Positions 6,003 to 31,667 of a stretch of DNA of 64,000 nt are shown here, one piece after another. The stretch is taken from positions 744,001-808,000 of the forward strand of contig JAHXIO010000005.1 in the NCBI GenBank assembly GCA_025655595.1, read 5' to 3'. The position numbers and the translations under genes are program-made. This DNA is from Candidatus Thiodiazotropha sp. (ex Monitilora ramsayi) (lineage in GTDB: Bacteria > Pseudomonadota > Gammaproteobacteria > Chromatiales > Chromatiaceae). Under the pieces are notes generated by a model. It was not told the DNA's origin. It made no database searches and worked only from the letters and a program-made list of their open reading frames with translations. How positions within the stretch are numbered: the first letter of the stretch is position 1; every line of letters begins with the position of its first letter.

Positions 6003-6071
6003 TTTCAATGACTGCGTCCATTCCATCCTCTATTGAGGAGATATCTGAAATGAATCAGCGTACCGGGAAGT

Positions 6072-6653
6072 TTAGCTCATGTTGCCGGCGACAAAGTCCC
6101 AATTGACCACTTTCCAGAAGGCATCCAGATAAGCGGGACGTGCGTTGCGATAGTCGATGTAGTAGGCGTGCTCCCACACATCGGCGGTCAACAGCGCCTT
6201 CTTGCCCGAGGTCATCGGGGTGCCGGCGTTGGAGGTGTTGAAGATCTCTAGGCTGCCGTCTTCGTTTTGTACCAGCCAGGTCCAGCCGGAGCCGAAGTTG
6301 GTGGCGCCGGAGGTGGCGAACTGCTTCTTGAATTCATCGAAGGAACCGAAAGTGCTGTTGATGGCGTCGGCAAGCGCACCGGTAGGCGCGTTGTTATCGC
6401 TCGGGCTGCGCATGCAGTTCCAGTAGAAGGTGTGGTTCCAGACCTGGGCCGCATTGTTGAAGATACCCCCGGAGGATTTCATGATGATCTCTTCCAGAGT
6501 GGCGTTCTCGAACTCGGTGCCCGGTACCAGGTTGTTCAGGTTGGTCACATAGGTGTTGTGGTGTTTGCCGTGGTGGAACTCCAGGGTCTCTTTCGAGATG
6601 ACCGGCTCCAGTGCATCGATGGCATAGGGCAGGGCGGGAAGTTCATGTGCCAT
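6072..6653 (-). CDS. sodB: Superoxide dismutase [Fe]
   Basis: 193 residues, full length for SodB. Cytoplasmic enzyme that converts superoxide to oxygen and hydrogen peroxide. Metal ligands are H27, H74 (VWNHTFYW), D158 and H162 ([13 protein letters not shown]). Gln70 in NNAAQVWNH is the active-site Gln of iron-type enzymes, so Fe rather than Mn is the likely cofactor. Ribosome site AAAGGAG precedes the ATG. Monocistronic, with its own terminator, divergent from hyuB. Confidence 0.97.
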
Positions 6654-6794
6654 GGTGAAATACTCCTTTCGTTAAAATGGGAAATTATTCTTGGGATCCG
6701 TAATTCAGTAGTGATCTGAAATAAACCTAGTAGAATGGTCGGCTATTCTAGCGGTGCCGCTACGGGGATGCAACAGGGTACATTGTGGGGGAGA

Positions 6795-16293: not shown

Positions 16294-16427
16294 AAAATCA
16301 CTCAAAGGGAGAAACTGACAGGGATGTGTAGCTACTTAGCGAACTACCGAGATACCAGGCTTGATCCGGGGTGTAGAAAGCGTCACGGGTCTGTGGCGGT
16401 ATTGTTGAGAACTTTTTGCAGCATAGT

Positions 16428-16477
16428 TCATTACTTGTGCCAGCGACATAACTCATTATGTGTGCCAGCAATATAAG
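16428..16477 (+). repeat. Two 25-bp tandem direct repeats before the first cassette
   Basis: TCATTACTTGTGCCAGCGAC (from 16428) and TCATTATGTGTGCCAGCAAT (from 16453) repeat with a 25-base period. They end eight bases before a GTTAAGT core (16484-16490) that fits the integron recombination consensus GTTRRRY. Integron attI sites have direct repeats beside the core, so this could be an attI-like remnant; no integrase gene is nearby. Confidence 0.4.
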
Positions 16478-16493
16478 TAACTGTTAAGTGACT

Positions 16494-17003
16494 ATGAATA
16501 TTCGAATTTACCCTGAATATTTCCAAGGCCAGCTATGTTCGAGAGACGTTGAAATATACGGGGATAGTACCGATGGATTCAGTCGAATGAAACTTCAGCT
16601 TCACGGCGAAATTCAGTGTTATTACGATAAGATAAATTCAGATGGGAATAACACTCCTTCTGAAAATACATTTGAGCCCTGTATATTTGAAATAGAATCA
16701 GTTGCCGTTGGGCTTATCTGTTGTATGGATATTAATGACCCCCAAGTGTATGTACCAGTCATAGATGACTTGATGGAATTCAAGTGTGAAAATAAAGTTC
16801 TGGCAATCTCTGCTTTTATGACTGACAGGTCGTGGTTTAGTGGAGATTCAGTAGCATCATATCTTAGTGGGCTCTATGTTGTTTTAGCAAATGGATGTGG
16901 CCTAGGTCCAAAATCCTTTATCACAGATGCTAAAGGCAACAAATTATCCAGCTCGGATATAACTTTGGGTAACGTAAGCATTATAAACTATGGCGTCACT
17001 TAA
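16494..17003 (+). CDS. Hypothetical protein of integron cassette 1
   Basis: 169 residues from ATG 16494 (a GTG two codons upstream is also possible). No family recognised. Soluble, acidic, beta-rich looking, with Cys-Cys at VGLICCMD and no signal peptide or membrane helix. Base composition is clearly AT-richer than the CHAD-ParA genes before it. The stop codon lies inside the attC element that follows, a normal arrangement for a gene cassette. Together with the GTTAAGT core just upstream this fits a mobile cassette of about 590 bases. Confidence 0.6.
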   Translation: MNIRIYPEYFQGQLCSRDVEIYGDSTDGFSRMKLQLHGEIQCYYDKINSDGNNTPSENTFEPCIFEIESVAVGLICCMDINDPQVYVPVIDDLMEFKCENKVLAISAFMTDRSWFSGDSVASYLSGLYVVLANGCGLGPKSFITDAKGNKLSSSDITLGNVSIINYGVT

Positions 17004-17075
17004 CAAGGCCAGCCAGAGGGACCAAAAAACCGCCGCTTCGCTCTGGTTTTTCGGCCCCTGCTGGCGGCGTTAGGC
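16998..17075 (+). mobile_element. attC: attC recombination site 1
   Basis: 78 bp with outer cores ACTTAAC (16998-17004, fits RYYYAAC) and GTTAGGC (17069-17075, fits GTTRRRY). Inside, GCCAGC pairs with GCTGGC, AGGG with CCCT, and CCAAAAAACC with GGTTTTTCGG, giving the long imperfect hairpin used by integron integrases. It starts at the end of the preceding gene, as attC sites do. Confidence 0.85.
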
Positions 17076-17081
17076 TTCAAA

Positions 17082-17531
17082 ATGAACTCGTGGATTCGAC
17101 GCCATTGGCCAATATTACTCGTGTTAGGTGTTCTGGCATCGACATTGGGGTTCTTGAATTATGCCTTCCAGGGTATTTTCAGTGGGGCAACAGAATGTGA
17201 TGAGGATTCAAGAGCAGTGCGTTATGTTCGTTCTCTTCCGGAGGATCGGTTTGCCAGGCTATACAAAGATATGGAGAGTTACTCTGAAAAGGATATCTTT
17301 GAATATGAGAATTTCGGAAGTAACACATTCCCGGATGAATTCAATGATCTAGAAGTTGTGAGAATACGGCCAAAAGATGGAAATATCATGGTAAATGGAT
17401 GCTTTGACCATTATGTCTATTTAGAATTTCATGGGCTTGGTCGCGGCCATAAAAGACAAATGAAACCAGCTATACAGTTGCGTTGGGGAGAAGGCCCGAC
17501 AAGCGGTACCGAAATTGTGTGGCAAGAATGA
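17082..17531 (+). CDS. Hypothetical membrane-anchored protein of integron cassette 2
   Basis: 149 residues, start ATG seven bases after attC 1. One N-terminal hydrophobic segment (about 9-31, PILLVLGVLASTLGFLNYAF) after a basic start suggests an inner-membrane anchor with a periplasmic remainder. The rest shows no known motif; Cys residues occur in GATECDED and NGCFDHY. AT-richer than flanking core genes. Flanked by attC sites on both sides, so it is a complete cassette of about 534 bases. Confidence 0.6.
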   Translation: MNSWIRRHWPILLVLGVLASTLGFLNYAFQGIFSGATECDEDSRAVRYVRSLPEDRFARLYKDMESYSEKDIFEYENFGSNTFPDEFNDLEVVRIRPKDGNIMVNGCFDHYVYLEFHGLGRGHKRQMKPAIQLRWGEGPTSGTEIVWQE

Positions 17532-17535
17532 AAAA

Positions 17536-17609
17536 GCCTAACCATACAATCAACTTTGCGCCTTCGGCGCCGGACGCGCTAAAGCGCGCCGGTTATTGGT
17601 GCGTTAGAA
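17536..17609 (+). mobile_element. attC: attC recombination site 2
   Basis: 74 bp with outer cores GCCTAAC (17536-17542) and GTTAGAA (17603-17609; one mismatch to GTTRRRY). Inner parts CAATCAACTTTGCGCC and GCGCGCCGGTTATTG can pair imperfectly, with a secondary GCGCCTTCGGCGC hairpin. It begins four bases after the cassette 2 stop codon. Confidence 0.75.
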
Positions 17610-17627
17610 TTCATATGAATAACTTTC

Positions 17628-18425
17628 ATGAAACAAACACCTAGGGCACTATTCATTTCCCATGGTGGAGGACCTATGCCGTTGCTTAGAGATCCAGGTC
17701 ATAAGGAAATGGTCTCATGTCTCGAAGATATCGCTTCAAGTGCTCCTGTACCCAACGCGATCATAGTGATAAGCGCGCATTGGGAAGAGCAAGTTCCTAC
17801 AATCACTGCTGGGAAGATTCCTCCCTTGATTTATGACTACTATGGGTTTCCCGACGATTCATACAAAATTCAATACCCCTGTCGGGGGGATCCAGACTTG
17901 GCTGATGAAGTCCATAGATTATTGATCAGTTCGGAGATTGGTGCCGCGCTTGATGACTCGAGAGGATTTGATCACGGCCTTTTTGTACCGCTCAAAATTA
18001 TGTATCCCGAGGCAAATATTCCTTGTATTCAGTTATCTCTGGTAAATACGCTTGATCCGAATCAACATATAGCAATAGGCCGTGCGCTCCGGAAACTCTG
18101 TCGTGAGAATATACTTGTAATCGGTTCTGGCTTTTCATTCCATAATCTGGAAGCGTTTTTCGCGGTTGACACTTCCGAATCACGTCGGCTCAATCACGCC
18201 TTTGAAAAGTGGTTGATGAAAGTTTGCTCAAGTCGAGATTATTCGGAAGAAGAGAGAACGGAGATGTTAGTTCACTGGAGCAAAGCAGAGGGAGCTCATT
18301 ATTGCCATCCCAGGGAAGAGCATTTGTTACCGCTCCACGTATGCTATGGAGTTGCGGAAAGTCCTTGCTCTGAGAGTTTCAGAGTCACCATCATGAACAA
18401 AGAATCGAGCATGTATGTATGGTGA
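17628..18425 (+). CDS. DODA-type (LigB) extradiol ring-opening dioxygenase
   Basis: 265 residues, full length for the YgiD/DODA family. Visible signatures: LFISHGGGPMPLL with the first metal His, IVISAHWEEQ with the second, the conserved GFDHGLFVPLKIMYPEA segment and IGSGFSFHNL. These enzymes use non-haem iron (or zinc-bound forms) and open catechol-type rings; substrate unknown. Start ATG 17628. It begins 19 bases after attC 2 and so occupies the third cassette position, but no attC was found after it. Base composition is closer to the chromosome than cassettes 1 and 2. Confidence 0.88.
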   Translation: MKQTPRALFISHGGGPMPLLRDPGHKEMVSCLEDIASSAPVPNAIIVISAHWEEQVPTITAGKIPPLIYDYYGFPDDSYKIQYPCRGDPDLADEVHRLLISSEIGAALDDSRGFDHGLFVPLKIMYPEANIPCIQLSLVNTLDPNQHIAIGRALRKLCRENILVIGSGFSFHNLEAFFAVDTSESRRLNHAFEKWLMKVCSSRDYSEEERTEMLVHWSKAEGAHYCHPREEHLLPLHVCYGVAESPCSESFRVTIMNKESSMYVW

Positions 18426-19302
18426 ATTGTAAATAAAAGAGGCTGGTGACGAAAGTTGATCACTAACATTTGCCATCGGCCCCTAAAACCATGCAGGGTC
18501 AGAGAAAACTTAATCTGGTTCCGTTTGTCTCAGGAAGGGATTGACCTAAGAAAAACAAGCATCACGATAAGTATTCTGAACCAGTCTGACCAAATAGAAA
18601 AGCTAGAGTAAAGAATTAGGGGGTGCTCGATCTTTTTTTTTGGTAACTTCCCCCTGAGATAATCAATCCGGCTCTACTTTTTTGTTACTTGGCAGGCCGA
18701 GTAATTAACCCAGATAGGGAAATTCAGGACTGCACGAAACCTTTTCGGAACCTGACTACAGAAATAATGAAACTGATTCCAGTTTTCGGAATTTCACTGC
18801 AAAAATAAATGAACTCACGACAATATCTTCTGAACTGTTGAGATTATTTCGCACGTTCACGAGAAAAAAAGCGCCGTGATTGACTCAATTTTAATCAATC
18901 GCGAGTGAAATCGCATCGTGAGTTCAATTGTTTTTGTCGTTAAGTTCCAAAATCATCCAAAGCAGTCAAAAAAAGGCTTCATGAGTTCGATTATTTTCTT
19001 CCGACGGGTCAAAGATTCGTGCCAAACAGTCTATTATTCGAGTGGCAAGGTACCAAATGAGGACACTCACCGGGCTCGTAACCCTGCCAATGATGCTTAT
19101 ATCCAGCTTCAGCCGGGTCTGTCCCCTATTAACTACAGTAATCGACACATTACATGCCATGGTTGAATACAAAAAACGAGTTGGTGAAATATTTCGAGAG
19201 CTCGGTATAGCGAGATTATTGGGGTCAGAGCCCTTTAATCCAAACGTATCTGAAGGCCGCAAGATGCCTCTTGAATTAATCAAATGGAGTAGATAATAAG
19301 AA
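18426..19302. other. 877-base region without a convincing gene
   Basis: AT-rich and low in coding signal. Two near-copies of GTGAGTTCAATTGTTTTTGT (18918 and 18981, 63 bases apart, in the same frame) are present. Arms TGAACTCACG (about 18810) and CGTGAGTTCA (about 18917) form an inverted pair. A GTG-initiated frame of 84 codons (19042-19296) ends six bases before the next gene and looks weakly protein-like but matches nothing known. Probably decayed insertion material. Confidence 0.4.
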
Positions 19303-19593
19303 ATGTCCGCTTACGTTATCATCCGTATCAAAGTTACTGATGCTGAGAAATTGAAAGAGTATCAGAAAGTGGTGCCATCGATTATTGAGCAGTACGAGGG
19401 AAGGATTCTGGCGCGAGGCAGTGAGCTGGTATCGCTGGAAGGACCGCAAGAAACGCGAAGAGTTGTTATGATTGAATTTCCTGACCTTACAAGGGAAAAA
19501 GACTTCTACTGTTCTGAAGTGTATACCAGTGCTATTGCCTTACGTGAAAATGCAGCCGTCTTTGAGTCGATTGCCATTGATGGATTGAGTTAG
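19303..19593 (+). CDS. DUF1330 domain protein
   Basis: 96 residues. Dimeric alpha-beta barrel fold of the DUF1330/NIPSNAP kind: starts MSAYVIIRIKVTDAEKLKEY, then a central YEGRILARG and RRVVMIEFPD, with the family's typical length of about 95. Function unknown; related proteins are often linked to small-molecule metabolism. First of several small soluble proteins on the plus strand in the island. Confidence 0.8.
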   Translation: MSAYVIIRIKVTDAEKLKEYQKVVPSIIEQYEGRILARGSELVSLEGPQETRRVVMIEFPDLTREKDFYCSEVYTSAIALRENAAVFESIAIDGLS

Positions 19594-19677
19594 CTGTTAT
19601 CTATACCGATCATCCGAGAACGTCTTATTTTAAATATAAAGAAGTTGTCTCTGAAAGGACAATATATGGAGGAAGTC

Positions 19678-20358
19678 ATGGATCCGATTTCAGTTGCGTT
19701 CCCCCTCACAGGAGAGTGGTGTGCTGTCAATACGCCGGGTCATAAAGTGCCAAGCCATGGTACTGACCAGCTTGGGCAGAGATACGCATACGATTTTATC
19801 AAAATAGATTGGCGAAAGGAGAAAGGGTACAAGTTTTACACTACACCTCTCATCCGCAGCATATTATTCGGCGTAGCGTTAGAAGATACATACTGTTGGT
19901 CGCAGCCGATATTGGCACCATTCGATGGAGAGGTCATCGTGGCGCAGGACGGGTTAAAGGAGAGAAATCCGGTTCATTTCGTCAGAGACATGGCGGTCGT
20001 TTTAAAAAACAGCATCTTCTTCCGTGCCAAGAGTAACGAAGAGTTACATCCATTGCTCGGGAATTACCTGATTCTGAAAAAGGATGACGGAATTTATTCT
20101 CTGATAGCGCATGCGAAGAACGGGTCACTGAAGGTGTCGAATGGCCAGAGGATCTCGGAAGGTCAGTTTTTGGCCGAGGTTGGCCATTCCGGTAACTCGA
20201 CAGCGCCGCACCTTCATTTTCAGCTCATGGACAGGCCGGAGTTGCTGGAAGCTGAGGGACTGCCTTGCTGCTTCAAGCACTATCAACGACATGATGATCG
20301 TCGTTGGTTGCAGGTAACAGACGGGGTGCCAGGAAGGAGAGAGCGAATAATGACATGA
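19678..20358 (+). CDS. M23-like metallopeptidase family protein, no signal peptide
   Basis: 226 residues from ATG 19678, chosen because GGAGG lies seven bases upstream; an earlier ATG at 19666 and a TTG at 19645 are in frame. A duplicated-hybrid-motif (M23) fold is indicated by APFDGEVIVAQDG, GNYLILKKDDGIYSLIAHAK and GHSGNSTAPHLHFQLMD, the last with the HxH zinc ligand pair. The N-terminal ligand region reads SHGTDQLGQRYAYDF (H27, D30 or D39). Unlike classic M23 hydrolases it shows no signal peptide, so periplasmic peptidoglycan cleavage is not assured. Confidence 0.8.
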   Translation: MDPISVAFPLTGEWCAVNTPGHKVPSHGTDQLGQRYAYDFIKIDWRKEKGYKFYTTPLIRSILFGVALEDTYCWSQPILAPFDGEVIVAQDGLKERNPVHFVRDMAVVLKNSIFFRAKSNEELHPLLGNYLILKKDDGIYSLIAHAKNGSLKVSNGQRISEGQFLAEVGHSGNSTAPHLHFQLMDRPELLEAEGLPCCFKHYQRHDDRRWLQVTDGVPGRRERIMT

Positions 20359-20617
20359 AGTCCGAAGTCACAGAGCATCAGAGGGAAGATAATAAGAGAA
20401 TGGACAGGGAAATAGAGGCCATTGATGGAAAACCCTATCCGGTCTGTAAGTCGAAACAACCGGCCAATCAATCACATTTATAATGGAAATCGCAGGACTC
20501 CGCGTATAGCCCCAGCCGTTACGAGTGGACTATGCTTCCTATCACGAATCCCGGTGTCTAACTGTAAGCGTGAGGCGCTGTTTCAGTTAAGGCATATCGA
20601 AGATAAGGAGGCAATCT

Positions 20618-20989
20618 ATGAGCAACAATCCTGTAGGGTGGTTTGAGATCTATGTCCAGGACATTAGGCGTGCCAAGTCTTTCTATGAAAGTGTTTTTAA
20701 AGTACAGCTTCAGGATCTTCAGATGCCGGACATGGAGATGCATGCATTTCCTATGGTGGATGAGGCGATGGGTGCGCCGGGTGCGATTGTTAAGATGGAG
20801 GGGATCCCGTCAGGTGGAAACAGTACCAGGGTCTACTTCTCATGCGAGGATTGTGCCGATGAGGAGAGCCGGGTGTCGGATAGTGGAGGGAGTGTTGTCA
20901 AGGAGAAGTTCTCTATTGGTGAGTATGGTTTCGTATCACTGGTGACGGACCCTGATGGAAATATGATTGGTCTGCATTCGCTTAAATGA
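20618..20989 (+). CDS. VOC family (glyoxalase-like) protein
   Basis: 123 residues, single vicinal-oxygen-chelate unit. Begins NPVGWFEIYVQDIRRAKSFYE, the usual first beta-alpha of these proteins, and ends GFVSLVTDPDGNMIGLHS, with the C-terminal Glu replaced by Leu-His. Strong ribosome site AGGAGG eight bases before the ATG. Substrate unknown; similar proteins range from lyases to antibiotic-binding proteins. Confidence 0.85.
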   Translation: MSNNPVGWFEIYVQDIRRAKSFYESVFKVQLQDLQMPDMEMHAFPMVDEAMGAPGAIVKMEGIPSGGNSTRVYFSCEDCADEESRVSDSGGSVVKEKFSIGEYGFVSLVTDPDGNMIGLHSLK

Positions 20990-21137
20990 TACAAACCTGA
21001 AAGGCGGTCGGTGTCGGATGCGAAACACTATTTTCCGTCACCGATGCCTTTATTTCCATAAGATAGAATAAAGCATTATCAATGCAGAACGCACCTGTTC
21101 CGCTAATTCGACAAAGAAAAACAGTAAGGAGACATCG

Positions 21138-22094
21138 ATGTTGATTGTCACGAATCGCAATATTGTCAAGAGCAACTTCAAGGATGGTGTCGGTGATGAG
21201 GGGGCATTCGGTGACGACGTCAACTCCAAGGGTCCCAATGAAGTGCGGTTGGCTTATGCAGAGAAAAAACAAGGGAAGTGGAGGGTCGAATTAGTTAAAG
21301 AGCCCTCAAGAATTACAGCGAGAAACATACCCTCGAGAAAAGAGTTTTCCATATTGCGGGATAAGTTGACGCAATCGAAGAAGAACTGTGTTTTTTTCGT
21401 TCACGGCTTCAATCAGGATCTTTTGAAAAATCTAGAGAAGAGTCTGGCCATAGAAAAACAGCATGGTGTTGAGGTGGTTGCGTTTTCCTGGCCTTCCAAT
21501 CCGGGTGGTTTCAAAACGAATGAATACCGCCACGCAAAGAGAACTGCCAAGGCATCGGTCGGGGCGCTGGATGCCACGCTTGAAAAGTTGGGGCGATATC
21601 TGCAGGAGCCATTTAACCGAGAAGCACTTGAGGCTTGCGAGACAAAATTCAGTTTTTTGTCGCATAGCCTGGGTGGTTTTCTGTTCCAAAACTATGTGCG
21701 TGATTCGTCTTACGATGATGAAACCAATATTTTTGAGAACGTCATACTGTGTCAGGCCGATGTTGACAGCCCGGGGCATGAAGCGTGGGTCGATCAAATC
21801 GAAGCAGGTAAGCGCACCTATGTCACCATTAATGAAAACGACTGGGTGTTGAAGTGGTCGGATGCCAACTTTCAGAAAGATCGCCTGGGGAGAACGGCTC
21901 GTGATCTTGTTTCCAGGAGTGCGGGTTATTTCGACTTTACCGACGGCCCCAACGTTGGCACGACGCATGGACTCTTCTACAAGAAAACCAATGACGTGGT
22001 GAAAGCCTTTTTTACCGAGGTGCTCAACGGCAGGCGGGGGGAATCGGTCGCCGGGCTCAACTACGATGCAAGATCTAACGCTTACAGATTTTGA
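21138..22094 (+). CDS. Alpha/beta hydrolase, DUF900 family
   Basis: 318 residues. The oxyanion strand CVFFVHGFNQDL and the nucleophile elbow FLSHSLGGFLFQN (GxSxG variant with His for the first Gly) identify an alpha/beta hydrolase of the DUF900 type. Acid and His are probably in VDSPGHE and GTTHGLFY. The ATG has AAGGAGACATCG before it. No signal peptide. It converges with the membrane-GGCT gene, 81 bases apart. Confidence 0.82.
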   Translation: MLIVTNRNIVKSNFKDGVGDEGAFGDDVNSKGPNEVRLAYAEKKQGKWRVELVKEPSRITARNIPSRKEFSILRDKLTQSKKNCVFFVHGFNQDLLKNLEKSLAIEKQHGVEVVAFSWPSNPGGFKTNEYRHAKRTAKASVGALDATLEKLGRYLQEPFNREALEACETKFSFLSHSLGGFLFQNYVRDSSYDDETNIFENVILCQADVDSPGHEAWVDQIEAGKRTYVTINENDWVLKWSDANFQKDRLGRTARDLVSRSAGYFDFTDGPNVGTTHGLFYKKTNDVVKAFFTEVLNGRRGESVAGLNYDARSNAYRF

Positions 22095-22175
22095 CTAAAA
22101 GAACATTGAGTAACGTTTTGGCATTCGCTGAGATGGCGCTGGCTTTCTATCGGTGTATTTGTCGTGACGTGTGGG

Positions 22176-23705
22176 TCACGGTAAATCACACTTTTGCAGT
22201 TGCTGTAGCTTGTAATGAGCAGCGACCTGAATATTCAATTGCTTTTTTTCTGACAGTTTTTCATCGATACGCTGACACGCCAACTCGAAGTCATTGAAAT
22301 ATCTCTCTGCGACGATGCAAGTCTCTTTTGTCCCGTCGAATCGCCCGCGTGCAGCAGCAGAGGCAGTGTAAGTCCAGATCGTATAGGGTCGCTTTGGCAG
22401 TGTCCCGGTATTTTGTAATAGAAATTCCACCTGATCGGTGATGTCGATCCTGAGATAGTTGCGTTCCCGCCGGTCGAGGTTGGCCAGTGCGTTTAGACTG
22501 TGCTTTCTGACGACGCCGGTGACGAAGGCATCCTTTCCGGAACATGTACTGACATTCAGAAAAGAGACCCGCTTGGGTGTTGTCTCTCCGCTGGGTGCCT
22601 TGTAGATCTTATAACCAGGCACCTCAATTTCATTGTTCATGGTGGCTTGCCAGTCTCTCTCATAGCCTCTCAGATTGGCGATAAAACAGTCATCGCAGTC
22701 CAACCACTCTCCCATCAGAGAGCCGTATCCAAAAACGTAGTTGTCGATAGTGCCGTCTTCAAAATGCTCCCAGCCTTTCCAGGTTTTGGGTTTGCTGCCG
22801 GTTTTGAGCGGTTCCGCGCCGGGGCGAACGTTAATCGGCCACTCTCGTCCCTGGCTGTACCAATCATGTGCGTCATTGATCGTCCACCAGAGAGATTCCA
22901 TCAGGTGTCCGTCAGAGTCGTCGATGGTGCCCTCGATGTTGATGACCAAAAAAGATTTTGCGTCTGCAGTCTCTTCGGTGAATTGTGGCTGGAAGTCGTG
23001 ACCTTGAATTGTGCTTAGTCGTAGTTTGCCTTGATCGCTGTTATTACGGTCCAGGTCATCCTTCTGCAGAGGGATGCGTATGGAGAGGGGAACGAACGGC
23101 AGGGCGATGGCCCAGGTCTTGGTGGTGAGATCGATGGTGCTATTGATCACCGACCAGTCCCCCTCGCGGATTTTCGGGCGGCGAAGCTTGGCAATGAAGT
23201 TGAGATTCAACAGCGTCAGTTGCGTCCCGTTGTAGAGGCGGCAGCGAAGTTCCCATCCGCCGCCCTTTTCCCAGAATTCCTTATCGTTTGGTTTTTCCAG
23301 GTCAGCTTCATTAGCCGGGGCAAGACAGAGTGTTGGTCTTCGTACGAACAGGTCCTTGTGAGAGAGCAGTTTGACAACAATCACCGACAACAGCAGGGCG
23401 ATGGCGATGGTTCTGGCAACGTAGAGTAACAACAAGGGCAGCTCCCTCGATACCTCTTCATAGAGGCCCTTACACTCATCGGTGCCTAAGGAGAAGAATT
23501 GATAGATGTTGCAGCGTGTAAGTTCGCCGACTTGTTGTAAACCGACCATGGAGACATGTGTAGGCTTGAAGTTCTGCAGCAGGGCGATAGCGAAACAGAA
23601 CAGAATTATCGCAGCCACAGCGATGAGGGCTATAAAGTAACCATTGCTGGAGACTATCCGCGTACTCAACTTTCTTTTGCTTGTTATGTGCCTATTACCG
23701 AGCAA
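22176..23705 (-). CDS. Membrane protein with C-terminal gamma-glutamylcyclotransferase-like domain
   Basis: 509 residues. Two membrane helices (about 23-43 and 91-113) enclose a Cys-containing loop. A beta-rich region follows (about 150-265: WELRCRLYNGTQLTLLNLNF, FVPLSIRIPL, SFLVINIEGTIDD). It resembles in order and spacing the cytoplasmic sandwich of inward-rectifier K+ channels, but no TxGYG selectivity filter is present, so it is not a channel. Residues about 322-470 form a GGCT/AIG2-like domain with the signature YVFGYGSLMGEW and LDRRERNYLRI (E414 is the likely catalytic acid). The fusion itself is not one I recognise. Single gene, convergent with the DUF900 hydrolase. Confidence 0.72.
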   Translation of the reverse strand: MLGNRHITSKRKLSTRIVSSNGYFIALIAVAAIILFCFAIALLQNFKPTHVSMVGLQQVGELTRCNIYQFFSLGTDECKGLYEEVSRELPLLLLYVARTIAIALLLSVIVVKLLSHKDLFVRRPTLCLAPANEADLEKPNDKEFWEKGGGWELRCRLYNGTQLTLLNLNFIAKLRRPKIREGDWSVINSTIDLTTKTWAIALPFVPLSIRIPLQKDDLDRNNSDQGKLRLSTIQGHDFQPQFTEETADAKSFLVINIEGTIDDSDGHLMESLWWTINDAHDWYSQGREWPINVRPGAEPLKTGSKPKTWKGWEHFEDGTIDNYVFGYGSLMGEWLDCDDCFIANLRGYERDWQATMNNEIEVPGYKIYKAPSGETTPKRVSFLNVSTCSGKDAFVTGVVRKHSLNALANLDRRERNYLRIDITDQVEFLLQNTGTLPKRPYTIWTYTASAAARGRFDGTKETCIVAERYFNDFELACQRIDEKLSEKKQLNIQVAAHYKLQQLQKCDLP

Positions 23706-24411
23706 TGAATTGGATCTCTGTTATGGGTAAGGCGTACAATTTAATTGATCATATTAGGTGTCATGTATGAAAAATTCCACGAATATCAATGAACCGTTAG
23801 AGACAATATCCCTGTACTGTGGTTCTTGATCTTGGTGGGTGATCAATGTTCAGCGTCGATATCTCGTATGCGTAGGCCTTATTCCAGGAGTGATTTCATA
23901 AAATACTCCTGGGTTATCATTTCTGCATGAGTTGCCTCTATCAGTTTGTCTTCTGGCTAGACGTTTAAGCGATATTGGAGGACTTACAGTTTCCCTAGCT
24001 AAATAGTACTTGTAAAAAGTGCTTACTGAATCGATCCCGTATACACCAACAGTCAGTTCTATCGACATATTCGGGTTCTCGCAGTTAATACCGAAGGCTT
24101 CGTATCTCGCGATCCGATTTCGTGAGCTTCCAGTGGTTCAGATTCTCTGCGAGTTTGAAAAGGAAAATCTGGGCATTCGGTTCATGTCGATTGATTATTG
24201 GATGAAACGAGTAAAGTAGGTGAAAGTGGAGTTGAGTGTGTGACTTTGTGGCAAGTTTTGTATCTATTGGTATTTAGCAATTCAAGCCATTAAAGATCGG
24301 GAGTGGTGGAAAAGCAGATATCCACATAAAACGTGTCGGAATAATTTACGGAACAATCACATTTATAACGCACAGTTTAAAAAATATTATAATAAACAAC
24401 AATATATATTA
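23706..24411. other. 700-base region without a convincing gene
   Basis: AT-rich, no frame with coding character. Contains a hairpin CCAGGAGT (23884-23891) with ACTCCTGG (23905-23912). The last part is the upstream region of the PEP-CTERM gene. Confidence 0.4.
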
Positions 24412-24428
24412 TTGGCATAAAATATGCC
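24412..24428 (+). promoter_or_regulatory. Sigma-54-like promoter of the PEP-CTERM gene
   Basis: TTGGCATAAAATATGCC has GG (24414-24415) and GC (24426-24427) exactly ten bases apart, as in the -24/-12 RpoN consensus TTGGCACG-N4-TTGC. It would start transcription near 24439, about 38 bases before the start codon. Other PEP-CTERM genes are known to be RpoN-dependent. Confidence 0.5.
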
Positions 24429-24476
24429 TATTGCTAACTCGAGTTTGAAGCCAATTGTTTTTCTGAAGGAATGAAG

Positions 24477-25001
24477 ATGAAAAAAGTCGTTTTTTTACTT
24501 ATTTGCTTATTTGCAGCATCAGCAAATGCAACGCTAATCGGTGATACGGTTCATATTGCTCAAAATTATCCAGTACTGGGCAGTGAACACTATCCAACTG
24601 ACGTTACCATTGGTGCCGGTCTGGAGTTCGATTGGGTGTATGATATTGATATTAGTGCTGATGCTATTGATATCGTTCTGAATGGCGGTTTTGTAAATGT
24701 GCCTGACGCGCTGCCAAGTTTTAATGGCCCTGTGATTTCTGGATTAGATGATTCTTCTGGAAACCCACTGATTGGGTTCAGCAATTTCAGCACTACCATT
24801 TCCGGTTTTCTCGCGAGCGACATTCATATCTTCGATAACAACACAATTGGCTTCAATCTTGATGGTCTGAGTGGTTACAATGCAACGCTGCATGTGGATC
24901 TGGATTTTGGCTCTACATCTGTACCTGAGCCAGCCTCAATCGCATTGCTCGGTCTTGGCTTGATTGGAATCGGCTATTCCAAGAAAAGGAAATTCGTTTA
25001 A
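24477..25001 (+). CDS. PEP-CTERM sorting domain-containing protein
   Basis: 174 residues from ATG 24477, which has AAGGA six bases upstream; the ATG two codons earlier abuts that site. Signal peptide MKKVVFLLICLFAASANA, then a secreted Asp/Gly/Asn-rich beta-type domain, and a C-terminal sorting tail: VPEPASIALLGLGLIGIGYS followed by KKRK. Such tails are cut by exosortase and the protein is exported to the surface or exopolysaccharide matrix. No exosortase or EPS locus is in this window. Followed by an intrinsic terminator. Confidence 0.9.
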   Translation: MKKVVFLLICLFAASANATLIGDTVHIAQNYPVLGSEHYPTDVTIGAGLEFDWVYDIDISADAIDIVLNGGFVNVPDALPSFNGPVISGLDDSSGNPLIGFSNFSTTISGFLASDIHIFDNNTIGFNLDGLSGYNATLHVDLDFGSTSVPEPASIALLGLGLIGIGYSKKRKFV

Positions 25002-25165: not shown

Positions 25166-25519
25166 CTACTCTGCCGCTTTCATGGAGGTGATGCGGAAGC
25201 GGTTGTCGCGTCCCTTCTTCAAGGTGAAGTGCACCTTATCTCCAGACTTGAAGGAAGAGAGGTCCACACGCTTGGTCACCGGCAGGTCCATGGTCATCTC
25301 CGGCCAGCTGAGTGAGGGGATCGGTTCGTGGGTCAGGTTGACCATCTGCTTCCCGGCATCCACCTGATGCAGCGTGCCCATGCCCATAGCCTGATTGGCA
25401 CTGCCACCCATCATGGAGTGGTCGTGCATACTGTGGTCTTCATGGCTTGCAGCGAATATGAATGTTTGGAACGTCATGCCGAGTATCAGAATCAGCAGGG
25501 TGGCAATGTGGTGTTTCAT
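25166..25519 (-). CDS. cusF: Periplasmic copper chaperone CusF-like protein
   Basis: 117 residues from ATG 25519 (GAGGT six bases upstream). Signal peptide of about 23 residues, then a Met/His-rich stretch (HEDHSMHDHSMMGG). The CusF domain has the Cu(I) site: His in LTHEPIPSL, followed by WPEMTM, equivalent to E. coli CusF H36, W44, M47 and M49. CusF hands periplasmic Cu(I)/Ag(I) to the CusCBA pump. Its start lies 2 bases after the cusA stop, so it is the last gene of cusC-cusB-cusA-cusF. The frame remains open upstream into cusA, but that part is not coding. Confidence 0.92.
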   Translation of the reverse strand: MKHHIATLLILILGMTFQTFIFAASHEDHSMHDHSMMGGSANQAMGMGTLHQVDAGKQMVNLTHEPIPSLSWPEMTMDLPVTKRVDLSSFKSGDKVHFTLKKGRDNRFRITSMKAAE

Positions 25520-25521
25520 AC

Positions 25522-28500
25522 TTATACCTCTTGCGGTTGTTGGGATGCATCTGCATCGGGAAGTGAAGCGGGAGCGGAGGCGGGCAGACGCCGCGACTCC
25601 CAGATCAGATAGATGACCGGTATCACGATCAGCGTCATGACGGTGGTGCTCACCATACCGCCCACCATGGGCAGGGCGATGCGGCGCATGACGTCCGATC
25701 CCGGTCCTTCGGTGAAGAAGATGGGCAGCAACCCGGCGATGATCACCGAGACAGTCATCAGCTTGGGCCGCACGCGCAGGGCGGCACCAGTCATGATGGC
25801 AGCGAAGAGCGTTTTGCGGTCCACAGGCGGCAGATTGCGCACCTGCTGATCGATATAGATCAGCATCACCACGGCGGTCTCCACCGCGATACCGCCCAGG
25901 GCGATGAAGCCCACCGCCACGGCGACGGAGAGGTTGTAGCCGGCGAGATAGACCGCCCACATGCCGCCCACCAGTCCGAAGGGAAGGGCTGTCATCACTA
26001 TCACCGTGCGGTCAGTACGCCCGAAATGAATCATCAACAGCACCAGGATGATGGCGGCTGCCGCGGGGATGGCGATCTTGAGGCGTGCGCGTGCCTCCAG
26101 CATCTGCTCATACTGTCCGGACCAGGTGACGGCATAGCCCGACGGCAGGTTGACCTGCTCGGCGACCCGCTGGCGGGCCTCGTCCACATAGCCGCCGATA
26201 TCCCGGCCATCGATATCGACGAAGACCCAGCCGGTGAGGCGGGCGTCCTCGGACTTGATCATGGGTGGTCCCGGTGCGTACTCGATGGTCGCCACCTCGC
26301 CTAGGGGGATGTGCATGCCATTCGGTGTCGGTACCAGGATGTCGGTGAGCTGGTGAACCGACTCGCGGAAGGGGCGGTCGTAGCGGAGCATGATGTTGTA
26401 GCGCTCGCGTCCCTGCACACTCTCGGCAACCCTCATGCCACCGAGGGCAGTCTGAATGATCGACTGAAAGACCCCCAGATCGATATTACGCCGCGCCAGT
26501 TCGTCCCGGTTGGGGACGATCTCGAGATACTTGCCGCCGGTCACCCGGTCTGCGAAGGCGCTGCGGGTGCCCGGCACCTCTTTCACCGCACCCTCCACGT
26601 CGAGGGCGATGCGCCCGATCTCGTCCAGGTCGGGGCCGGAGATCTTGATCCCGACCGGGGTGCGGATGCCGGTGGAGATCATGTCCATACGGATCTTGAT
26701 CGGGTAGCCCCAGCTGTTGACCAGGCCCGGCAGCTTCACCCGCTCATCGAGGGTTTTGATCAGCCCGTCGATATCCATGCCCTCGCGCCAGCTCTCCCTC
26801 GGTTTGAGCCGCACCCAGGTCTCGATCATCGAGATGGGCGCCGGGTCGGTTGCCGTGTCAGCCCGGCCCACCTTGCCGAAGACCTGGTCCACCTCGGGCA
26901 CAGTGAGGATCAGCCGGTTGGTCTGGGCCAGCACCTCCTTCGCTTTGGTGATGGAGACCCCGGGAAGTGTGGTGGGCATGTAGAGCAACTCGCCCTCATA
27001 GAGCGCCGGCATGAACTCGGTGCCCAGCTTGGTGTAGGGGTACCAGAGGCTGCCGATACCGGCGGTGGCGATCAGCAGGGTGAGCCAGCGCTGTTTCATA
27101 GAGAAGCTCAGAATCGGTTTATAGAGTGCGACGAAGAGCCGGTTGAGAGGATTGACCTCTTCACGCCGGATTCTGCCCCGGATCAGCCACAGCATCAGGA
27201 TCGGCACGATAGTGACCGAGAGGATGGAGGCGAAGGCCATGGCATAGGTCTTGGTATAGGCAAGGGGTGAGAAGAGCCGGAAACTCTCGCCGGTGAGTGC
27301 AAAGACCGGCAGAAAGGAGACGGTGATGATCAGCAGGCTGAAGAAGAGTCCCGGCCCCACCTCTTTGGCCGACTGCAATAGCGCGGCGTTGTAGGCCTTG
27401 CGGCCCACGGAGTCGGGCATGTCGCTCAGCTTGCGATGGGCGTTCTCCACCATCACGATGGAGGCGTCCACCATTGCCCCGATGGCGATGGCGATCCCCC
27501 CCAGGGACATGATGTTGGCGGTGATGCCCTGGGCCGCCATGACGGTGAAGGCGCCCAACACCCCCAGGGGCAGGGTGATGATAGCAACGAAGGCGGAGCG
27601 GACATGGAGCAGGAAGATAAAGCAGACCAGGGCCACGACGATGCCCTCTTCGAGCAGCTTGTGGTTGAGATAGTCCACCGCGCCGCGGATCAGGGGCGCG
27701 CGGTCGTAGACGGTCTGGATCTCCACGCCGTCGGGCAGGCCTTGCCGCAGGGTGTCGAGCTTCTTCTCCAGCGCCTCGATCACGTTGAGGGCGTTCTCGC
27801 CGGAGCGCATTACCACGATGCCGCCGACCACCTCGCCCTCGCCGTTGAGCTCCACCACGCCGCGCCGCAGTTCAGGGCCCTCGATGACCCGCGCAACATC
27901 GGTCAGCAGCACCGGGGTGCCGTTTCTCGCCTGCACCACCACCCGCTGCAGATCCTGCAGGGAAGTGATGTAGCCCCGGGAGCGGATCATCAGCTCGGTC
28001 TCGGCGCGCTCCAGCACCCGGCCGCCCACCTCCATGCTGGCAGCCTTTACCGCTTCCCTCACTCTCACCAGGGGGATATCGAAGGCGCGCAGCCGGTTGG
28101 GGTCGATCAGCACCTGATACTCCCGCACGAAGCCGCCTACCGAGGCGACTTCCGAGACGCCGGGCACGGTGGCGAGCTCGAAGCGCAGGAACCAGTCCTG
28201 CAGGGCGCGCAGTTCGGCGAGATCGTGCCGGCCGCTTCTGTCGAGCAGGGCGTACTGGTAGACCCATCCCACCCCGGTGGCGTCCGGTCCGAGGCGGGGA
28301 GTGGCGTTTTGCGGCAGATCCTTCTGTACCGTGGCGAGCGCTTCCGCTACCCGGCTCCTGGCCCAGTAGTCGTCGACCCCGTCCTGGAATATTACGTAGA
28401 CGAAACTGGTGCCGAACATGGAGAACCCCCGTACCGCCTCGGTCTTGGGCAGGCCCAAGAGGGTGGCGGAGAGGGGGTAGGTCACCAGATCCTCCACGAT

Positions 28501-28722
28501 CTGCGGCGCCTGGCCGGCGAAATCGGTGCGGATGATCACCTGGGTGTCCGAGAGGTCGGGAATGGCGTCGAGGGGGGTGCGGTCCAGGGCGAGTATCCCC
28601 GCCACCGCCAGGGCAGCTGTGAAGATAAGCACGATCAGCTGGTTTTTCACCGACCAGCCGATCACCTTGGCGACAAAGGATCGGGAGGGATCGTCGCCGA
28701 CGATATCGTGGATATCATGCAT
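25522..28722 (-). CDS. cusA: Copper/silver efflux RND permease CusA
   Basis: 1066 residues, inner-membrane HME-RND pump. Twelve membrane helices, with the first just after IGWSVKNQLIVLIFTAAL. The Met residues of the CusA Cu(I) relay appear in the expected segments: GELLYMPTTLPG, DPAPISMIETWVRL and RMDMISTGIRTPVG, which argues for Cu/Ag rather than Co/Zn/Cd. The proton-relay helix segment GGIAIAIGAMVDASIVMVENAHRKL is present. It forms a trimer spanning to CusB and CusC. Between cusB (30-base gap) and cusF (2-base gap). Confidence 0.95.
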   Translation of the reverse strand: MHDIHDIVGDDPSRSFVAKVIGWSVKNQLIVLIFTAALAVAGILALDRTPLDAIPDLSDTQVIIRTDFAGQAPQIVEDLVTYPLSATLLGLPKTEAVRGFSMFGTSFVYVIFQDGVDDYWARSRVAEALATVQKDLPQNATPRLGPDATGVGWVYQYALLDRSGRHDLAELRALQDWFLRFELATVPGVSEVASVGGFVREYQVLIDPNRLRAFDIPLVRVREAVKAASMEVGGRVLERAETELMIRSRGYITSLQDLQRVVVQARNGTPVLLTDVARVIEGPELRRGVVELNGEGEVVGGIVVMRSGENALNVIEALEKKLDTLRQGLPDGVEIQTVYDRAPLIRGAVDYLNHKLLEEGIVVALVCFIFLLHVRSAFVAIITLPLGVLGAFTVMAAQGITANIMSLGGIAIAIGAMVDASIVMVENAHRKLSDMPDSVGRKAYNAALLQSAKEVGPGLFFSLLIITVSFLPVFALTGESFRLFSPLAYTKTYAMAFASILSVTIVPILMLWLIRGRIRREEVNPLNRLFVALYKPILSFSMKQRWLTLLIATAGIGSLWYPYTKLGTEFMPALYEGELLYMPTTLPGVSITKAKEVLAQTNRLILTVPEVDQVFGKVGRADTATDPAPISMIETWVRLKPRESWREGMDIDGLIKTLDERVKLPGLVNSWGYPIKIRMDMISTGIRTPVGIKISGPDLDEIGRIALDVEGAVKEVPGTRSAFADRVTGGKYLEIVPNRDELARRNIDLGVFQSIIQTALGGMRVAESVQGRERYNIMLRYDRPFRESVHQLTDILVPTPNGMHIPLGEVATIEYAPGPPMIKSEDARLTGWVFVDIDGRDIGGYVDEARQRVAEQVNLPSGYAVTWSGQYEQMLEARARLKIAIPAAAAIILVLLMIHFGRTDRTVIVMTALPFGLVGGMWAVYLAGYNLSVAVAVGFIALGGIAVETAVVMLIYIDQQVRNLPPVDRKTLFAAIMTGAALRVRPKLMTVSVIIAGLLPIFFTEGPGSDVMRRIALPMVGGMVSTTVMTLIVIPVIYLIWESRRLPASAPASLPDADASQQPQEV

Positions 28723-28752
28723 GGCGAATCCCCCGGGATGGGATGAGCGACT

Positions 28753-30366
28753 TCACTGGACCAATACCCCCGCTGCTTTGCTGTACGGATTGAAGGCCTC
28801 TCCGGCCATCTGCAACCAGAGCCGGTCATCGGTGCTGTCCCGGTAGAGCTGTACCCCCTTCTGTTGGTAGTGGTCGCGCCGTCCCGATACGACCCAGGGT
28901 TCCAGTTCGGTGACCAACAGGTGCAGTGCGGCCTGCAGAGCACTTTCGGTACGGGCCTGTTGCGCCGTCTCAATAGCTTCTGCCGCTCCCGTCAGGATCG
29001 GCCCCAGCCGGGTGTCGCCGAAACTGGACCACAGCATGTCCCGGATCTCCCTGGCCGGTTGCAGTTGATCGGGGGAGACGTCATAACCGTCCACCAGCGC
29101 CTCGTGCAGATAGAGCGCCGCATCGATCATGTGGTCGACCATGGCCATCTGATTCTTGCTCAGAGGCAGCGCCTCCAGTTCCAGCTTGAGGCGCTGGAGC
29201 TTTTGGAAGGATTCCCGCAGGGTGCTCTCGGAGTCGATGAGAAATTGGCCCGAGACTACGATCCGGTCACTGCCGTCGATCCCCTCCACCACTTCTGTGA
29301 AACCGCCGCTGCTGAGTCCGGTACGCACACTGCGCGGCTGGAAGCGTCCTTCGCCCAGGGCGACTACCAGATAGGGTCCGTCTTCACCGATCAGCAGCGC
29401 GTTGTCGGGTACCGAGAGACGTCGGTCCATGTCCACCTCGAACAGTACGTCGGCATAGGCCCCGGGCCGGAGCTGGCCGTCTTTGTTCTCCAACGCCAGT
29501 CTGACGGTACCGGTACGGCTGGCGGGATCCACCGTGGGATGGATATAGTCGATCCGGCTGTCGATCACCCGACCCGGCAGATTGGGCAGGATGACCTGCA
29601 CCCGGGTCTCCATCGTCACCTCCGCCAGATCTTTCTCGGCGACTGCGGCATTGATCCAGACGGTGCCGTAGTCCTGGATTACCGCCAGGGTTTCGCCGGG
29701 CCGCACGTAGGCGCCCTCCCGCACCCGCAGGTCGCTCAGTGTGCCGTCGGTGACGGCGTAGAAGGGGACCTGCTCCACCAGTTTTCTCTGTTTGCGCAGG
29801 TGTTTGATGAAGGATGCGGAGACGCCGAGGGCCTCGAGGCGCACGGCGGCGGAGCGTATGCGCTGGTCGCTCTGTCGCTCAAGCGCGCTGAGATAGTCCC
29901 GTTGCGCCGCCACCAGGTCGGGGCTGAAGAGCCGGTATAGCAGGTCGCCCCGCTTCACCTGGTCACCCACCGCGGTGACCCCGAGGGTTTCGACCCATCC
30001 CGACACCCGGCTCGAGACTTCGCTGCGCAGTCGTTCGTTCTCCGCCACTACGCCATAGGCACGGATGCGGCTGCCGAACCGGGTCATCTCGGCACGGCCG
30101 TAGCGCACGCCCATGTTCTGGATCGTTTCCGGCGGGATGGTGACCATCGTCCGTCCGCTCGGTTCCTCTCCAGCCGCATCCATGGCCGGTCCGGTCTCCA
30201 GCGCTACGAGGTCCATGCCGCAGATGGGACAGCTGCCCATCTCATCGGCGATATAGTGGGGGTGCATGGGACAGGTGTATTGGTTGCCTTCCCCCGAGTG
30301 GATCGTACCGGTGAAGAGCAGCATCAGAACCAGCACGGCGCCGGCGATTGACAGAGTAGGTTTCAT
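28753..30366 (-). CDS. cusB: Efflux RND periplasmic adaptor CusB with heavy-metal-binding domain
   Basis: 537 residues. After a signal peptide comes a small metal-binding domain, YTCPMHPHYIADEMGSCPIC (about 30-50) and then GMDL, found at the front of many CusB-like adaptors. The membrane-fusion core follows (about 80-370), including VSGWVETLGVTAVGDQVKRG and the beta-barrel GTVRLALENKDGQLRPGAYADVLF. The C-terminal 140 residues form an extra helical region (from DSESTLRESFQKLQRL to the end, with AFNPYSKAAG) that resembles DUF3347-type extensions. The ATG overlaps the cusC stop by four bases. Confidence 0.92.
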   Translation of the reverse strand: MKPTLSIAGAVLVLMLLFTGTIHSGEGNQYTCPMHPHYIADEMGSCPICGMDLVALETGPAMDAAGEEPSGRTMVTIPPETIQNMGVRYGRAEMTRFGSRIRAYGVVAENERLRSEVSSRVSGWVETLGVTAVGDQVKRGDLLYRLFSPDLVAAQRDYLSALERQSDQRIRSAAVRLEALGVSASFIKHLRKQRKLVEQVPFYAVTDGTLSDLRVREGAYVRPGETLAVIQDYGTVWINAAVAEKDLAEVTMETRVQVILPNLPGRVIDSRIDYIHPTVDPASRTGTVRLALENKDGQLRPGAYADVLFEVDMDRRLSVPDNALLIGEDGPYLVVALGEGRFQPRSVRTGLSSGGFTEVVEGIDGSDRIVVSGQFLIDSESTLRESFQKLQRLKLELEALPLSKNQMAMVDHMIDAALYLHEALVDGYDVSPDQLQPAREIRDMLWSSFGDTRLGPILTGAAEAIETAQQARTESALQAALHLLVTELEPWVVSGRRDHYQQKGVQLYRDSTDDRLWLQMAGEAFNPYSKAAGVLVQ

Positions 30367-31667
30367 CGATTTTCCTCCACCAGCAGGGCGTTGGCACGGG
30401 CCGCGGCAATGGTGCGTTTGGCCTCCGTTTCGGCGATGTCCATATCGACGTCGGCAAGTTGGATGGCGGGGCGGATGACCGCCTCCAGGTCGATATCCCC
30501 CGCTTCGTAGCGGCGGCGGTTGGACGCCTCCAGCGCCTGCAGACGTATCTGCCGCTGCGCCATGGCCGCCAGCAAGCTGTCCGCGGTGTGGTAGTCGGCC
30601 AGCGCCGTTTCATAGTCGCTTTTTTCTTCACGCAGTTGCCGCTCCTGTTGTGCCATCACCTTGGTGACGTTGGCTTCCGCCGCTTGCAGCTTGGGGGTCT
30701 GGTTGGTGCCTGACCAGAGGGGGACGCTGGCGGTGAATTTGAGGGTGAACCAGTCATCCCCGTCGAAGGTCTCTCCCGCTTCCCGCTGTTGCCAGGCGGC
30801 ACCGAAGGCGAGGTCGGGACTGAAGGCCGATTCACGCTCCTTCACTTTTGCTCGGGCCACAGCCAGCTTGCCCAGTTCAATCCTGATCTTGAGCAACGTT
30901 TCCGGGGCGCCAGACCAGTTAGCCGGTGTGATTGGTGGCAGTGCTGCTGTCGACGGTACATGATCGACCAACTCCCTGAGCTCGGCCTGCCAGCGTCTCT
31001 CTTCACCGGCCAGGGTCAGCTTCTTCTCTTCGATCTTGGCCCGCCGTACATCCAGTTCATCGAAGCGGCTGTAGACAGCTTCGCCGCCCGCCATCTCGCC
31101 ACGCAGCCAGCGTTCCAGCTCGGAGAGCAGGGCCAGCTTCTGGTCCAGCGCAGCCGTTGAGTCCTCAATTCTGCGTCTCTCGGCCAGGGCGGTGATCAGC
31201 CGTCGGTGCAGTCCCGCCCATACCGCCTCTCTTTCCAGATCGGCCAGTGAGGCGCGGGCGAGGTGGGTGCCGCGCAGGGCTTCTCTGCCTTTGATGTTGG
31301 GGATCGTCTGTTTGAACTCCAGGCTGCGGTTGCTGGGGAGATAGCGGTCGAAGCTGGTGGGTTCGTTCACCGGGACATTGTTGATCCCTAGGGTGATATT
31401 CGGATTGGGCAGTCCAAGTGCCCCTTCCGCGCTGGCCTCCCACTGCCGTCGTTCGGACGCGTTGACAGAGAGGGCGGGGTGCTGCTGCAGGCGTACCAGC
31501 AGGTCCTGAAATACGGTGTGGTCGGCCGTGTTGGCCGCGATGGTCTGGCCGGTCGCCAACAGGGGGATCAGCAATAAGGGTGGATGCAATCGATGATTGC
31601 AGACACGGAGACAGCGGTGAATCCGTGCACCGGTGTGTGACAGCGTCGTCATGAAACGGCTCATCAT
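30363..31667 (-). CDS. cusC: TolC-family outer membrane efflux protein CusC
   Basis: 434 residues. Long helical TolC-type protein with a hydrophobic signal segment (about 28-45, PPLLLIPLLATGQTIAA). Later segments such as ITLGINNVPV and SLEFKQTIPNIKGREA are typical of the metal-efflux OEP branch. It is the outer-membrane channel of the CusCBA pump. First gene of the operon; overlaps cusB by four bases. An alternative start is the Met at residue 6. Confidence 0.88.
   Translation of the reverse strand: MMSRFMTTLSHTGARIHRCLRVCNHRLHPPLLLIPLLATGQTIAANTADHTVFQDLLVRLQQHPALSVNASERRQWEASAEGALGLPNPNITLGINNVPVNEPTSFDRYLPSNRSLEFKQTIPNIKGREALRGTHLARASLADLEREAVWAGLHRRLITALAERRRIEDSTAALDQKLALLSELERWLRGEMAGGEAVYSRFDELDVRRAKIEEKKLTLAGEERRWQAELRELVDHVPSTAALPPITPANWSGAPETLLKIRIELGKLAVARAKVKERESAFSPDLAFGAAWQQREAGETFDGDDWFTLKFTASVPLWSGTNQTPKLQAAEANVTKVMAQQERQLREEKSDYETALADYHTADSLLAAMAQRQIRLQALEASNRRRYEAGDIDLEAVIRPAIQLADVDMDIAETEAKRTIAAARANALLVEENR

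Follow-up and report, generated by a model that had tools for sequence, protein, structure and literature searches.

The fusion gene and its parts

The window analysed here, a stretch of 64,000 nucleotides from Candidatus Thiodiazotropha sp. (ex Monitilora ramsayi), contains a gene for a protein in which two predicted transmembrane (TM) helices and a beta-rich module resembling the cytoplasmic part of inward-rectifier (Kir) channels are joined to a gamma-glutamylcyclotransferase-fold (GGCT) domain. The parts of this gene are:

22176..23705, minus strand: whole gene, 509 aa Kir-like/GGCT fusion (TTG start 23705, stop 22176)
23634..23705, minus strand: basic N-terminus (5 K/R, 0 D/E), predicted to be cytoplasmic from its composition and the positive-inside rule
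23577..23633, minus strand: TM helix 1, residues 25-43 (hydropathy; helix 5-45 in the model)
23469..23513, minus strand: degenerate pore-helix region, residues 65-79, CNIYQFFSLGTDECK (Cys65 and Cys78, no TxGYG)
23373..23429, minus strand: TM helix 2, residues 93-111 (hydropathy; helix 89-121 in the model)
22836..23345, minus strand: beta-rich Kir-cytoplasmic-like module, ~residues 121-290 (alignments, hhalign, homologue model)
22752..22835, minus strand: linker, ~residues 291-318 (low pLDDT)
22251..22751, minus strand: GGCT domain, ~residues 319-485 (model, Foldseek, alignment)

The first-pass annotation had placed this gene at 22176-23705. The reading frame is real, but it lies on the minus strand and runs from 23705 to 22176; the frame from 22176 on the plus strand is interrupted by stops. 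A stop in frame six codons upstream of the TTG at 23705 leaves little room for a start further upstream. Orthologues with 66 and 70% identity are present in two other genomes of the same genus, and pS exceeds pN by far in each of the three main parts (TM, beta and GGCT), so this is a genuine gene and no chance ORF. The window protein has no Pfam match above cut-off and no NCBIfam match.

The GGCT domain is complete-looking

The AlphaFold2 model of the window protein has pLDDT values of 66-94 (mean ~84) in ten-residue blocks from residue 321 on (321-509). Foldseek searches with this model returned five matches with E up to 0.001, namely human ChaC2 (four chains; top match, E 1.6e-5) and B. subtilis YkqA, with human GGACT next at E 0.03. 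The sequence YVFGYGSL is found at residues 323-330, and LDRRERNY at residues 410-417 holds the putative catalytic E414. Over the 13 GGCT domains that we chose for alignment nine columns are invariant, including G328, S329, E414 and Y417; an intact YGSL is seen in 12 of these domains, and E414 is present in all 13. E414 aligns with a glutamate of AIG2-like chains that we take to be the catalytic residue. The earlier description of a complete-looking GGCT domain is thus borne out by the predicted fold, the YGSL signature and the conserved E414, and the fold on which that description had been staked is present in the model. Judged from these residues the domain appears catalytically intact and would presumably be an active enzyme.

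The domain resembles the ChaC and GGACT-AIG2 families (PF04752, PF06094) in predicted fold, YGSL signature and conserved Glu, and differs from them in its fusion to a membrane part. It carries an M(D/N)N..PGYK signature that actinobacterial stand-alone proteins have as well. The Pfam GGACT model gave no match in the window protein or its remote homologues L015 and L018, and scored 19.7 and 22.4 bits in the orthologues relative to a cut-off of 22.8; it passes this cut-off in stand-alone kin (30.8 bits in L014, 38.3 bits in L006). Weak ribosomal-protein matches of the L006 GGCT in a search of solved structures were set aside. Since the host genome contains three further GGACT matches (L046-L048, one of them broken by stops), this enzyme type is not unique to the fusion gene.

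Few proteins have the same order of parts

The middle part of the window model mostly has pLDDT under 50, and for this reason remote homologues were also examined. A genome scan gave 24 loci, which comprise two orthologues, two remote homologues (L015 and L018) and 20 others, in which GGCT stands alone or follows a different N-terminal stretch; the ORF start is uncertain in several of these. A search for other proteins with the same order (two TMs, beta module, GGCT) had been suggested, and it brings the number to five fused proteins in all: the window protein, L012 and L013 of the same genus, L015 (Rhodocyclaceae) and L018 (Chromatiales). L013 is included in these counts despite a frame (5977-7386) that stops ~50 residues short and has an unrelated tail, which may reflect a frameshift or a real truncation.

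In tblastn searches window residues 148-465 matched L015 (E 3e-17) and residues 152-508 matched L018 (E 2e-15), links that are presumably carried mostly by the GGCT domain. When only beta modules were compared, the window protein matched L015 with p 1.4e-4 and L018 with p 1.1e-3, and L012 matched them with p 5.0e-4 and p 2.3e-5, respectively (0/1000 shuffles each). Whole N-terminal parts of the window clade relative to those of L015/L018 gave an hhalign score of 20.4 (shuffle maxima 24.3, 31.1 and 29.6) and a best blastp E of 0.89. Overall, a kinship of the window N-terminal module with those of L015 and L018 is likely from these comparisons. A tree of GGCT domains does not unite the five fused domains, and their union is not rejected (p-AU 0.315), so a single origin of the fusion is neither shown nor rejected by this tree.

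The fusion protein is rare. The gene was found in 3 of 22 genomes of the genus (its own, G005 and G018), and a sample of the class gave a match in 2 of 274 genomes (its own and G069); a search of 76 relatives of G069 gave G069 only. In a sample of the phylum, from which G069 and both orthologue genomes are evidently absent, the N-terminal profile matched one of 398 genomes (its own), and a search with alignment A1 gave seven of 398, namely its own, G474 and five with short partial GGCT matches. No relatives came up in plasmids or phages when the window protein was the tblastn query, in plasmids when L015 or the two-TM protein of L006 was, or in the viral contigs searched. Sequence searches of solved structures with the window protein, L015 and the family alignment A4 gave nothing meaningful; three weak A4 matches, to Rab proteins and a dehydroquinate dehydratase, were discounted as unrelated. 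A role in anti-phage defence was also dropped, as PADLOC gave no match in the six proteins submitted.

The genomic neighbourhood

The gene lies in a region of the window (16-25 kb) with a G+C content of 0.43-0.49, relative to 0.58-0.64 in its direct neighbours. This block (16400-25000) also contains LigB-like, DUF1330, M23 peptidase and glyoxalase-like ORFs. A DUF900 alpha/beta hydrolase (44 bits; 21138-22094, plus strand) is convergent with the fusion gene, and a PEP-CTERM protein is encoded nearby (24471-25001, plus strand; Pfam match). PEP-CTERM proteins are also found near the fusion gene in L013 (8044-8844, Pfam) and L012 (8052-8852, by its near-identical start), and these look unlike that of the window.

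Cus-type efflux genes (AcrB-type, CusB/HlyD-type with a heavy-metal-binding domain, and OEP) occupy 25166-31667 on the minus strand. In L012 and L013 the fusion gene is likewise downstream of a cus-type efflux operon on the same strand, an assignment made from CusF and AcrB-type matches with some genes of each species scanned. The same operon upstream, on the same strand, in both other species points to the fusion gene and cus-type operon being one old locus in the genus. A link to copper was considered from this arrangement in all three genus members and rejected, as the neighbours of L015 and L018 differ; adjacency to cus is therefore not independent evidence.

The first-pass annotation had the gene in a likely transferred island. 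The low-G+C block and the patchy occurrence of the gene (3/22) speak for this, but other parts of the window, at ~44-46 and 52-57 kb, are also low in G+C (near 0.48-0.51), the gene itself has a G+C content of 0.508, and the shared neighbourhood is a sign of an old locus, which leaves the case for an island weak. No obvious integrase or transposase was seen by eye among the ORFs listed for 15-32 kb.

The membrane part lacks a canonical filter

The claim of two TM helices without a pore filter stands, with hydrophobic segments at residues 25-43 and 93-111 and no TxGYG between them (QNFKP...CNIYQFFSLGTDECKG... in the window). TxGYG is found in none of the six family proteins, which comprise the five fused proteins and the two-TM protein of L006, where the two parts are split. 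The letters at the filter position read SLGTD in the window, SLSTP in L012/L013, TLSGGNA in L015, TLGEVDG in L018 and ALITGD in L006. Two Cys residues bracket a short hydrophobic inter-TM stretch in five of five fused proteins and in none of the one split protein. Between the TMs the window model has helices at 53-70 and 76-85 (pLDDT 64-73).

According to the positive-inside rule, basic residues are on the cytoplasmic side. In the window protein the N-terminus and the residues that follow TM2 are both basic, which indicates, at the level of sequence, an N-in, C-in topology. The corresponding residues are not basic in the orthologues, for which the same prediction put TM2 11 residues further on, nor in L006.

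Kinship with Kir channels is supported through homologues

The beta-rich module starts with an RP pair that is invariant over the six aligned family proteins. We compared an alignment of six family N-termini (A8; A4 leaves out L006) with an alignment of six KirBac-type proteins (A7), three from genomes and three from plasmid records. The hhalign score was 44.6 (E 1.9e-5, probability 77%, 215 columns), and the match is colinear over TM1, P, TM2 and the RP pair into the beta part. Shuffled controls (150 each) reached at most 23.7 for columns, 28.7 for blocks of 10 and 32.6 for blocks of 25, and a reversed profile gave 17.1. Alignment A4 scored 37.4 (E 2.2e-4) over a shorter match, which covers the TM part and ends where the beta part begins.

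Further hhalign controls used 100 block-of-10 shuffles each. The family without L006 (38.2; shuffle maximum 22.0), L015 and L018 alone (40.5), the beta part alone (26.2; maximum 24.8; 30 columns, aligned as in the full-length match) and the TM part alone (21.8; maximum 18.9) all scored above every shuffle against KirBac. As a negative control, the beta part against the Kir TM part scored 10.5, with 83 of 100 shuffles as high. L006 alone scored 26.3 (3/100 shuffles as high) and the window clade alone 16.6 (46/100). When the beta parts of single sequences were compared with two KirBac-type proteins, those of the window protein (p 0.2-0.3), L012 and L018 gave no significant match, and those of L015 and L006 gave a marginal one with one of the pair. 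Pfam IRK_C gave no match in the family proteins or anywhere in the host genome, in a search that was positive for 4 of 200 genomes.

Structure prediction points in the same direction. The N-terminus of L015 was modelled template-free from a 6-row alignment without any Kir sequence (mean pLDDT 66; 65-89 in the beta part, residues 131-260). The best 50 of its 1382 Foldseek matches are all Kir channels (best E 1.7e-9, probability 1.00; the untitled match 9ma5_B is a Kir channel), and 151 matches have E up to 0.001. TM-scores of these matches are only ~0.3, so the arrangement of the parts relative to each other is not reproduced in the L015 model. The window model matched channel pores at E 0.88 or worse only.

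The proposed Kir-like beta module is thus supported through homologues, by the L015 fold and the family profile, but gives no direct signal in the window clade. Likewise, the beta-sandwich that the first-pass annotation had expected is seen in L015, whereas for the window protein, where the middle part is mostly under pLDDT 50, it rests on homology. With known KirBac and Kir K+ channels (PF17655, IRK_C) the family shares, via profile and fold of the homologues, the order of TM1, pore helix, TM2, RP junction and beta-sandwich. Unlike them it lacks TxGYG and an IRK_C match, L015 shows an identity of 17-18% with two KirBac-type proteins encoded in other genomes, and there is an additional GGCT domain.

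It could be argued that the beta-rich module is not related to Kir at all and, through convergence or a prediction artefact, only makes a lineage-specific 2TM-beta-GGCT fusion look like one. The missing direct signal in the window clade would fit this, as would the fact that the Foldseek result was obtained with a homologue, whose model is of medium confidence and was built from six aligned rows. However, the profile test, which uses sequence only and is independent of the structure model, beats all 450 shuffles, and its match is colinear from TM1 through P, TM2 and RP into the beta part. We consider an origin unrelated to Kir very improbable.

A split form in G474

In G474 (L006, 218-3122) three overlapping genes code for an ATP-grasp/TTL-like ligase, a GGCT with a C-terminal extension and a two-TM Kir-like protein. 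The GGCT gene (GGACT 38.3 bits) overlaps the upstream ATP-grasp-like gene by 4 bases and the downstream two-TM gene by 7. The upstream gene scores 26.1 bits with TTL, above cut-off, with glutathionylspermidine- and glutathione-synthetase matches far below their cut-offs. The downstream protein has 282 aa and two TMs and is alignable with the family N-terminus. It matched L015 and L018 with 1/1000 shuffles as high in each case, the window module with ~26% of shuffles as high, and A4 with an hhalign E of 0.054. Its link to the family is therefore weak, and much of the argument for including it comes from the gene beside it.

That the Kir-like part and GGCT are fused in some genomes and encoded by overlapping genes in another speaks for joint action of the two. 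An ATP-grasp ligase beside GGCT may suggest the making and breaking of a gamma-glutamyl-type bond. Searches for further split operons with family and KirBac profiles returned only known members among 862 ORFs of the searched loci, and 100 relatives of G474 gave G474 itself only.

The pore module is conserved more than the enzyme

Synonymous sites are saturated between the window gene and L012/L013 (pS 0.75-0.81). In the same comparison dN is 0.22-0.23 for the TM part, 0.17-0.18 for the beta part and 0.26-0.28 for GGCT; between L012 and L013 dN/dS is 0.075, 0.123 and 0.271, respectively. Purifying selection acts on all three parts, more strongly on the Kir-like part than on the enzyme, and the C-terminal tail is poorly conserved. 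Low dN and dN/dS despite saturated synonymous sites indicate that the membrane and beta parts are no decaying baggage. The filter letters vary even among orthologues (SLGTD relative to SLSTP), yet dN of the TM and beta parts is below that of GGCT, so by these sequences the pore module appears to be kept and the filter not.

GGCT is joined to other membrane parts elsewhere. In Sulfuricurvum MAGs (L032 5521-6525 and L033 5521-6525; the scan covered L032) DUF4760 (68.6 bits in L032) is fused to ChaC/GGCT, which is a second, unrelated membrane-GGCT fusion. A 469-aa ORF of a Paceibacterota MAG (L022, 2953-4362) has a GGCT domain that is separated by a long middle stretch from a single predicted TM.

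A proposed Kir-derived scaffold or sensor, or possibly an enzyme-coupled channel

We favour, at about an even chance, a Kir-derived membrane scaffold or sensor that carries GGCT at the membrane and in which the K+ filter has decayed. This is preferred because the pore module is kept and the filter is not, and because GGCT is joined to the unrelated DUF4760 membrane domain elsewhere. The chain would start inside, cross the membrane as TM1, form a degenerate pore helix between the two Cys on the periplasmic side and return through TM2; an RP-marked junction would then lead into a Kir-type beta-sandwich, placed here with the help of homologues, and the cytoplasmic GGCT. A presumed Kir-like tetramer would hold four GGCT domains at the inner membrane face. 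These may release 5-oxoproline from gamma-glutamyl compounds (a gamma-glutamyl amide, glutathione or adducts of the latter). The Kir part would be both scaffold and sensor, of lipid, voltage or, via the Cys pair, periplasmic redox, and what it senses might set the activity or place of the enzyme.

That the Kir-like part is a mere anchor for a constitutive membrane-bound GGCT is improbable. The joining of GGCT to unrelated membrane parts (DUF4760 in Sulfuricurvum L032, the one-TM ORF in L022) would agree with this simpler reading, but an anchor hardly needs a constraint stronger than that of the enzyme over ~300 residues.

The strongest rival of the scaffold or sensor would be an enzyme-coupled non-selective channel, which we regard as possible and clearly less probable. 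More broadly, the protein could be a working channel with an unconventional filter, either non-selective as in NirBacs or K+-conducting as in TbIRK, that is gated by its GGCT domain as a Kir-type channel-enzyme; this we hold just as tentatively. Gating, an equally tentative element of the same reading, could involve GGCT binding gamma-glutamyl compounds or removing a GSH-type inhibitor. NirBac1.1 and NirBac1.2 are reported to lack TxGYG, yet to form tetramer-consistent oligomers and conduct non-selectively (PMC4607889), and the title of a paper on TbIRK calls it a signature-sequence-free K+ channel (PMC5429665). The stronger constraint on the pore module than on the enzyme also favours conduction, as does KefGB, which GSH is reported to keep closed and S-lactoylGSH to activate (PMC3412212). 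On the other hand, the filter stretch is not conserved over the five fused proteins, and the two Cys are only 13 to 18 positions apart, a spacing that may leave the loop no room for a filter.

The NirBacs are a close parallel in this respect. They are reported to be ~35% identical to KirBac1.1, and their P-loop is non-canonical and differs between close relatives, with NirBac2.1 reading TTGTD (PMC4607889). The fusion family, at the level of its profile and of L015, shares this combination of a Kir architecture with a variable non-canonical P-loop, and SLGTD of the window recalls TTGTD. However, the orthologues of the window protein read SLSTP; the family stands at a much greater distance (for L015, 17-18% identity with the two KirBac-type proteins from other genomes); and the accessible text on NirBacs mentions no GGCT fusion (PMC4607889).

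What the fusion may mean

Kir channels are known to have regulatory partners, and TRPM2 and TRPM7 are channel-enzymes with a membrane channel and an enzyme in one chain. The fusion family is like the latter in joining a channel-type membrane part to an enzyme and differs in channel family and enzyme, and conduction is a proposal here. In the portions of the open-access literature that our search reached, we found no report of Kir or KirBac fused to an enzyme or cyclotransferase, and no earlier description of a Kir-like membrane module joined to GGCT.

In its most specific form, which we think somewhat less probable still than the general channel reading, the protein would be the first Kir-type channel-enzyme, a tetrameric, non-selective channel in which four tethered GGCT domains link pore opening to gamma-glutamyl turnover within one chain. 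If true, it would be a one-protein analogue of glutathione-gated Kef efflux, itself a precedent for glutathione control of ion flux (PMC3412212). Whether as the scaffold or sensor that we favour or as such a channel, the Kir fold would seem open to reuse as an enzyme scaffold or an enzyme-gated pore, to judge from the fusion itself, the split operon and the purifying selection on a pore module without filter. The family thus offers a small system for asking if a Kir domain signals to, or is signalled by, glutathione-type metabolism.
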